44,590 bases of DNA from Halorubrum yunnanense. Its GTDB lineage: Archaea; Halobacteriota; Halobacteria; Halobacteriales; Haloferacaceae. Under the pieces are notes generated by a model, which was given only the letters and a program-made list of their open reading frames with translations, had not been told where the DNA came from and made no database searches. Position numbers and translations under genes: made by a program. Location of the stretch: positions 1-44,590 of the forward strand of contig NZ_JAODIX010000035.1 in NCBI RefSeq assembly GCF_026586675.1. Reading direction: 5' to 3'. Positions 301 to 39,025 of the stretch are shown here, piece by piece; the stretch's first letter is position 1, and each line of letters starts with the position of its first letter.

Positions 301-637
301 TTATAAATCGTTGCCAGTAGAGCTCCGGTGAAGGCCTCCAAATCTCAGCCGTTTAGCTGTTCACTTTTATTTATAAATGACTGATCGATACCGACACTTC
401 CGAAGCCCCAGCCGCGAGGCGGGCGCACGCTCGCTGCGCTCCTCGTCACTCGCTTCGCTCGTTCCTGTGGTGCTTGCGTCGCCTGCGCCCGCCTCGCAGC
501 TGCCCCTTCGAGTCCCGCCCCGCTCCGCACCGCACCTCGCACCTCCCCAGCCTCGCCGCTCGCGCTTAAAAGCGCTCGCGGCGTCCCTCGCGCGTGCGAC
601 TCGCGCCCTGCGGGCGCTCGTCGGCACGCGCCACCGC
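301..637 (+). repeat. GC-rich structured repeat, copy A (complete)
   Basis: Copy A of a family with copies at 13444-13796 (minus), 38606-39025 (plus) and, in part, 44564-44590 (minus). In order it has a degenerate TATA-plus-leader unit (TTATAAAT at 301-308), a second TTATAAAT at 371-378, the 5' arm of an 18-bp inverted repeat at 410-427 (AGCCGCGAGGCGGGCGCA), a loop of 56 nt, and the 3' arm at 484-501 with one mismatch. A short hairpin GCGCTT-AA-AAGCGC lies near 563-576, another, GCGCCC-TGC-GGGCGC, near 603-617, and the conserved end is at 611-637. Short reading frames across it lack sensible codon use and are not conserved between copies. Function is unknown; a structured RNA or a non-autonomous mobile element are the main options. 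Confidence 0.8.
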
Positions 638-13443: not shown

Positions 13444-13796
13444 GGCCGCGAGTCGCACGCGCGAGGTCGCCGGCGCTACGCGCCGGCTGCCAGAGGGACC
13501 GGAGGTCCCTCGCTGGACGCGGCGACCGGAGGGAGCCGCGAGGTTGGGGAGGCGTGAGGTACGGTTCGGTCGCGGTCGGGTGGGACTCAAAGGGGCAGTC
13601 GCGAGGAGCGCACAGGCGACGTAAGCACTGCAGGGAGTGAGCGAAGCGAACGACCGAAGCGCGCAGCGAGCGTGTGCGCTCCTCGCGACTGGGGCTTTGG
13701 ATGTCTTCAACGCCGATCAGTTGTAATTTGTTTATAAACGATCGGCTGAGAATTCGGAGGCTGTCACCGCCGAATCACAGCGAACCGCTTATAAAT
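13444..13796 (-). repeat. GC-rich structured repeat, copy B (end truncated at the mobile element)
   Basis: Copy B reads on the minus strand. TATA-like words are at 13789-13796 and 13730-13738; the inverted-repeat arms are at 13673-13690 and 13597-13614 (AGTCGCGAGGAGCGCACA and its exact complement, 18 of 18 pairs). Farther on are hairpins GGGACC-TCC-GGTCCC and GCCGGCGC-GTA-GCGCCGGC (about 13469-13510), longer than in copies A and C. It stops at the junction with the 376-bp element, so the conserved terminal 27 bp found in A, C and D is missing. The left flank of that element does not carry the lost piece, so this was not a simple insertion. Confidence 0.8.
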
Positions 13797-13842
13797 GATT
13801 CCAGGTGAGAGCGAGATTCGCCTCACCGGCGGAAACGACCGC

Positions 13843-38605: not shown

Positions 38606-38788
38606 CGCCAAAGCCCCAGCCGCTCGCTTATAAATAGTTGACTGCGGAACGACTGCGAACACCGCCAAAGCCCCAGCCGCTCGCTTATAAATAGTCGACT
38701 GCGGAACGACTGCGAACACCGCCAAAGCCCCAGCCGCTCGCTTATAAATAGTCGACTGCGGAACGACTGCGAACACCGCCAAAGCCCC
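38606..38788 (+). repeat. 57-bp tandem repeat array carrying TATA boxes
   Basis: A unit of 57 bp repeats with almost no change: the TTATAAATAG words are at 38628, 38685 and 38742, and full units run 38641-38697 and 38698-38754, with partial units on each side. Each unit includes GCCAAAGCCCCAGCCG followed by CTCGCTTATAAATAG. The last partial unit runs straight into repeat copy C, where the same GCCCCAGCC is the start of the long stem. The repeats are adjacent with no unique spacers, so this is not a CRISPR array. The unit is a multiple of three and makes a repetitive minus-strand frame, which I do not consider coding. Confidence 0.88.
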
Positions 38789-39025
38789 AGCCGGGAGGCG
38801 GGCGCACGCTCGCTGCGCGCTTCAGTCGCTCACTCCGTTCACTCCTTCCAGTGCTTACATCGCCTGCGCCCGCCTCCCGGCTGCCCCTTTGAGTCCCACC
38901 ACACACCGCACAGCACCGCACCTCACACCTCCCCAACCTCGCCGCTTCACGCCCTTCGGGCGTTCGCGGCGTCCCTCGCGCGTGCGACTCGCGCCCTCCG
39001 GGCGCTCGTCGGCACGCGCCACCGC
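38755..39025 (+). repeat. GC-rich structured repeat, copy C (complete)
   Basis: Copy C follows the 57-bp array. The arms at 38789-38806 (AGCCGGGAGGCGGGCGCA) and 38865-38882 pair perfectly over 18 bp. After the second arm come GCCCCTTTGAGTCCC, as in copies A and B, then hairpins ACGCCC-TTC-GGGCGT (about 38949-38963) and GCGCCC-TCC-GGGCGC (about 38991-39005), and the terminal 27 bp at 38999-39025. The reading frame crossing it on the minus strand changes between copies and is not credible as protein. Confidence 0.82.

Follow-up and report, generated by a model that had tools for sequence, protein, structure and literature searches.

A class-wide intergenic repeat of Halobacteria, absent from Rfam, with a single-strand fold that appears to be under selection

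Results

The window, by which we mean the whole 44,590-nt stretch of Halorubrum yunnanense DNA analysed here, contains three matches to a covariance model (CM) built from 32 copies of a GC-rich repeat, referred to as copies A, B, and C, and a fourth copy begins 65 bases beyond the window end. The core hairpin of copy A, delimited by alignment and consensus fold, lies at 400–518 on the minus strand (CM match of 125 bits; DNA fold z of −4.0 against shuffled sequences). Read 5′ to 3′ on that strand, it consists of the outer pairs of CTCGAAG, GGGG, the P1 arm (484–501), a helix ladder (428–483), the P1′ arm (410–427), GGGG, and CTTCGG, the arms being assigned from sequence and covariation and the ladder from the consensus fold and pair counts. 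The ladder is made of 2–3 bp helices split by tandem G.A and purine loops and ends in an apical GAA triloop. On the same strand, motif positions place a conserved G-rich linker, GAGGCTGGGGAGG, found in the repeat across genera, at 542–554, and motif positions together with covariation in Halorubrum copies place a 5′ domain, the covarying hairpin GGTGGCGCG...GCGCGAGGGA, at 584–635. A near AT box, TTTATAAA, was located by position at 643–650, and degenerate 3′ units with TTTATAA boxes at 300–307 and 370–377 occupy 300–377.

Copy B is on the plus strand, with its core hairpin at 13580–13700 (143.2 bits, DNA fold z of −5.5), preceded at 13461–13579 by a degenerate 5′ domain end and extra hairpin modules, with the linker GAGGTTGGGGAGG at 13540–13552, and followed at 13701–13800 by degenerate 3′ units with TTATAAA boxes. 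Copy C is on the minus strand, with its core hairpin at 38779–38899 (136.4 bits, DNA fold z of −5.5) and its linker, variable hairpin, and 5′ domain at 38928–39023. Its own 3′ end is repeated in three additional tandem units of 57 bp at 38608–38778, with CTGGGGCTTTGG at 38608, 38665, and 38722 and with TTTATAAG boxes.

A preliminary description had presented these loci as a GC-rich multi-copy element with a covarying stem. The 18-bp inverted repeats of the three copies lie exactly where it had placed them, with the arms as it had written them, and arm positions 3, 6, 11, 13, and 16 do vary among the copies with the partner changing to match. Copies B and C pair perfectly, and the single mismatch reported for copy A is C·A on the plus strand and a G·T wobble on the other. 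The interval of about 56–58 nt between the arms was correct in span, but what had been called a loop is a covarying ladder of helices on the opposite strand. The strand also has to be reversed, since it is the complement of the one written that folds (−74 versus −52 kcal/mol for both strands of the same copies), and the 5′ and 3′ arms given for copy A are, as folded, P1′ and P1, respectively. The element also extends further, since the unit measures about 300 bp or more and includes another covarying hairpin upstream of the core.

On the folding strand (minus in copies A and C, plus in copy B), the full element reads, 5′ to 3′, AT box TTTATAAA, GGTGGCGCG-hairpin-GCGCGAGGGA, a variable hairpin, GAGGCTGGGGAGG, about 25 nt, GGTGGGACT(C/G)AAAGGGGC, the core hairpin, and GGGGCTTT(G/C). 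The core is about 120 nt long and ends in GTGGGACTGAAAGGGGC and GGGGCTTTC; the stem is bordered by CAAAG/CTTTG pairs, or CGAAG/CTTCG in copy A. In Halorubrum copies, tandem units composed of the last 3′-arm bases, downstream sequence, and a second AT box stand 3′ of the element in arrays that vary in length between species, and minimal copies of other genera consist of the core alone (e.g., L182). The near AT box (−17) was present in 35 of 62 copies compared to 14 of 1328 control windows and a far box (about −50) in 13 of 62, and both are features of the element itself. The boxes were rejected as the element's own promoter, given that the near box is at the wrong distance and the far box is found in only about a fifth of copies. 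A T-run terminator was found downstream of only 2 of 104 copies.

The G-tracts on both flanks of the core are nearly invariant. On the folding strand, three to four such tracts (GGGG, GGG, GGGG, GGGG) surround the core, both at 400–554 of the window and class-wide, and formation of a G-quadruplex from them at high cellular potassium is conceivable. Many cores of genome G172 are paired head to head, about 180–300 bp apart around the 5′ domain with the GGGGCTTTC ends outward (G172:C1, e.g., L174 1501–1932, L183, and L192). At L258 (G037), L211, and L308 (13682–13849), extra small perfect hairpin modules occur within the arms or ladder, as if hairpins had been inserted into hairpins. At five loci of the H. 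yunnanense genome (L004, L006, L011, L015, and L026), the position of the variable hairpin coincides exactly with N runs or long homopolymers of C or G, which probably reflect failed sequencing or assembly of the structure.

A set of 32 Halorubrum copies was aligned without structure. Standard pairs filled 98.2% of paired cells compared to 88.0% in shuffles, 25 of 39 pairs changed on both sides compared to 11.6 in shuffles (none of 500 shuffles reached 25), and sliding the partner by 1–3 columns lowered pairing to 26–47%. On the folding strand, the ladder forms a rod of 2–3 bp helices split by GA/GA, A/A, and GCA/GA loops under a triloop cap, and most of these short helices covary in the same alignment; in genome G022, 91 of 125 copies are capped by a GNA triloop. 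The 5′ domain hairpin covaries too among Halorubrum copies. In a second alignment, of 40 distinct copies that came mostly from genera other than Halorubrum, low sequence conservation of the P1 arms went together with near-perfect pairing, several columns used all four Watson–Crick pairs, and the covariation score was 0.626 compared to 0.165 for shuffled and 0.06–0.09 for slid partners, an absolute level that leans upward because this alignment was fitted to the model. The preliminary description had taken compensatory change as the mark of selection on a stem, whether of RNA or of extruded DNA, and covariation does lie far beyond the controls. Arm changes that fail to pair in a large alignment, or a lack of copies in related genomes, would have spoken against that reading; both were looked for, and the changes were paired and the relatives carried copies.

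The pairs that are not Watson–Crick distinguish the two strands. In the structure-free alignment, G·U outnumbered A·C on the folding strand by 34 to 11, and in the separate 5′ domain by 79 to 3, or 33 to 3 leaving out one doubtful column. The asymmetry ran in the same direction in two larger sets, which lean the model's way because they were fitted to the CM. Equal counts of G·U and A·C would be expected from a process that does not distinguish the strands, so this asymmetry counts against one. Strand-specific covariation, as used to recognise structured RNAs, was thus found for the repeat, and its single-strand fold appears to be under selection.

An initial sequence search of the H. yunnanense genome returned at least 40 copies, and the 112 matches of the CM at E ≤ 0.001, of which one echoes another copy in antisense, correspond to at least 110 copies. 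The complete Halorubrum chromosome G022 has at least 181. The repeat is present in 50 of 52 Halorubrum genomes, at 0 to more than 69 copies per genome, and a survey of Halobacteria, even with scoring confined to 14 candidates per genome, gave matches at E ≤ 1e-6 in 54 of 74 genera (163 of 242 genomes); about 30 of these matches were inspected and had the same conserved ends and interior. With a second model, built from other genera, 23 of 197 genomes sampled from the phylum matched, all of them Halobacteria, and none outside the class. Plasmid copies are rare (13 records with an other-genus query, 5 with copy A), and in the four plasmid records that were read, the copies are dispersed and intergenic, with no neighbor shared by all four. 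Two of the plasmid copies (L215 and L216, from Halomarina sp. BCD28 and archaeon DL31) are similarly placed, close to a gene whose annotation is an OB-fold nucleic-acid-binding or DNA-binding protein. Viral spread was rejected, as phage records gave no match at the sensitivity used and the exact 17-mer GTGGGACTGAAAGGGGC was absent from viral contigs.

Rfam 15 gave no matches in the window and nothing relevant at E ≤ 1 in three loci, and in the literature searched the motif strings of the repeat were found once, in an unrelated viral microRNA paper. The preliminary remark that no named family has this shape is in keeping with these searches, in which no description came to light; the class-wide intergenic repeat is undescribed and absent from Rfam.

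Genomic context was tallied for 125 copies in the first 2.0 Mb of G022, with genes called by a simple codon-based script. All but one of the copies (124) were intergenic, occupying 43 of 341 convergent, 66 of 817 tandem, and 15 of 334 divergent intergenic regions. A coding function was rejected from this location and from the one- and two-base length changes between copies. In a separate tally, the 3′ neighbors more often presented their own 3′ end to the element. Orientation in tandem gene pairs, derived from the G022 tallies, was near even (about 34 copies with and 32 against the genes), and the 181 copies along the G022 chromosome showed no strand clustering (runs z = +1.2). These two results argue against a 3′-UTR role in cis and against a replication-strand role; a 3′-UTR or read-through role was rejected on the unbiased orientation, and a replication-strand bias suspected from the first G022 hits vanished with all 181 copies.

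Most copies are divergent from one another, which argues for caution about present-day movement. Two in G022 are 95% identical over 547 bp, and comparison of orthologous sites shows that copies turn over between species, as observed from presence and absence, which leave gain and loss undistinguished. At the site of L182 (genus g23), the element is found in four species and missing in two (G068 and G164), where about 60 bp stand in its place. The H. yunnanense site L005 lacks the element in five close relatives, has it in G037, and in G028 has it in opposite orientation with the core lacking. At another site, H. yunnanense and G036 share an element with different arms while G009 is without it, and orthologous sites can bear entirely different arms. 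The core was deleted and the remainder kept at L040 and in G036. Compared with three orthologous copies, the hairpin at L241 in G109 has its interior turned around while both arms are intact, indicating that the arms recombine. No clean, precise target-site duplication of the element was found at the sites compared, where the flanks were too diverged.

A transposon-like family with GGCTCTGTTGAAAT ends and 8-bp target duplications (two exact) was also observed in G022:C1, at 378062–378712 (L286 18062–18712), 427092–427554, 1085238–1086130, 1166475–1167128, and 1201271–1202419. Its interiors differ wholly between copies, being non-coding DNA, ORFs, or the hairpin element, and two copies have nearly identical ends around different cargo.

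Discussion

Something in haloarchaeal cells probably reads the fold of this repeat. The reading that we favor, tentatively and with a little less than even confidence, is a non-autonomous dispersed DNA element recognized as a folded single strand by a putative enzyme. The folding strand would become single, for example during replication or repair, and fold, and the fold would be recognized, much like the hairpins of REP, attC, or IS200/605 ends, by a nuclease or recombinase of the haloarchaeal cell, which would then copy or move the element. The arms would drift freely provided that pairing is kept, because only folding copies propagate. Insertions within genes would be removed by selection and those at promoters would be rarer, and arm-to-arm recombination and exchange between copies would remodel elements locally. 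That the repeat is an ancient class-wide mobile element, its sole heritable trait a single-strand fold (hypervariable paired arms, a tandem-G·A ladder, a GNA cap, and flanking G-tracts) and its mover an undescribed, conserved archaeal enzyme that reads shape and not sequence, is possible, and we hold it more tentatively.

On the folding strand, G-U makes up 2.1% of minimum-free-energy pairs, compared to 8.5% in shuffled cores and 9.9% in 41 tRNAs of the same sequence; G-U is therefore far commoner in genuine RNA helices of this organism. In DNA, tandem sheared G·A pairs and GNA triloops with a C-G closing pair are exceptionally stable, as in the d(GCGAAGC) mini-hairpin. Short of proof, the low G-U content and the GNA triloops with tandem G·A favor single-stranded DNA. 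Against this, G·T wobble and G·A pairs occur in RNA as well, the low G-U content could stem from frequent arm-to-arm copying rather than from a DNA nature, and no transposase or recombinase was linked to the repeat.

The main rival is a structured non-coding RNA of about 120–300 nt, selfish or serving the host, transcribed from a promoter of its own or by read-through and selected for its fold as RNA, which we consider possible but rather doubtful. It accounts for a fold specific to one strand, for the preference there for G·U over A·C, for several hairpins joined by conserved purine linkers, and for AT boxes that belong to the element, yet the near box is too close for a full-length transcript, minimal copies have no box at all, and T-run terminators are nearly lacking. 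The scarcity of G-U relative to the tRNAs of the same genome, the prevalence of GNA triloops over GNRA tetraloops, and the unbiased orientation in tandem gene pairs also speak against an RNA.

Pairing could also be restored without function if inverted arms copied each other by quasipalindrome templated repair or gene conversion. The inverted interior in G109, the entirely different arms at orthologous sites, and the almost purely Watson–Crick arms all fit such mutational covariation, but it predicts no strand asymmetry, whereas the mismatches are asymmetric, and it leaves the class-wide conservation of the tandem G·A, the GNA loops, and the interior to be explained. The two-base-pair ladder helices that covary also seem too short for templated repair, and we consider this explanation unlikely. 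Marginally more improbable is a host-serving, REP-like element between convergent genes, acting as a transcription end point, in mRNA stability, or as a gyrase or nucleoid protein site and spread by ordinary duplication. The preference for convergent over divergent regions and for the 3′ ends of neighbors would suit it, but removal of harmful insertions would yield the same convergent preference, no T-run is associated with the repeat, its presence varies between related species, and its copy number differs widely within one genus. That the repeat is cargo of DDE transposons with IS6-like GGCTCTGTTGAAAT ends and an 8-bp target duplication is very improbable, as only 3 of 125 G022 copies lie between such ends (duplications of 8/8, 7/8, and 6/8, the exact one being AAATCGGT) and elsewhere such ends enclose cargo unrelated to it; the same count led us to reject an IS6-like MITE as a general route.

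Returning to the folded DNA element, the closest described things are the PATE/SMR and switch repeats of Haloquadratum and the bacterial REPs. The PATEs, SMRs, and "switch repeats" of Haloquadratum walsbyi are transposase-free, palindrome-bearing haloarchaeal elements with many copies, and they share with the present repeat sites occupied in opposite orientations or by core-deleted copies (PMC3119063). The palindromes of PATEs are near-terminal and similar to IS605 ends (PMC3119063), whereas here the hairpin is the main body. Unlike in PATEs, the interior of the repeat is conserved and its pairs covary across the class, and no link to IS605 emerged from the transposase searches, in which several high-copy genomes lacked TnpA.

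REP/BIME elements with their RAYT (TnpA-REP) share high-copy extragenic hairpins, inverted pairs in some genomes, and single-strand reading. They differ in that a REP is 20–40 nt long with a GTAG/CGTC-type tag, compared to about 120–300 nt and core ends GTGGGACTGAAAGGGGC and GGGGCTTTC, and in that the repeat has a ladder interior, hypervariable arms, and no obligatory Y1 transposase. The Y1 transposase family PF01797 had no matches in seven high-copy genomes (G001, G007, G009, G015, G019, G029, and G045), so this is not a standard REP/RAYT system, and Y1/RAYT mobilization was rejected. Integron attC sites likewise present a strand-specific single-strand hairpin with conserved ends and non-conserved complementary arms; to our knowledge, the conserved motifs of the repeat are unlike attC R boxes. 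The double-hairpin elements of fungal mitochondria are GC-rich dispersed hairpins with compensatory variation between copies, and they differ from the haloarchaeal repeat in size, ends, and host.

Conclusions

Runs of N and homopolymers interrupt several copies in this assembly at their hairpins, which makes the repeat a practical nuisance. With over a hundred divergent copies per genome in many haloarchaea and a class-wide distribution, it also amounts to a natural experiment of unusual depth on how a nucleic acid folds, in which the copies themselves show the pairing rules, the loops that are tolerated, and the strand that folds. If the repeat is an RNA, we know of few structured RNA families that would be as numerous within a genome; if it is moved as a folded strand, it would point to an undescribed enzyme conserved in Halobacteria.
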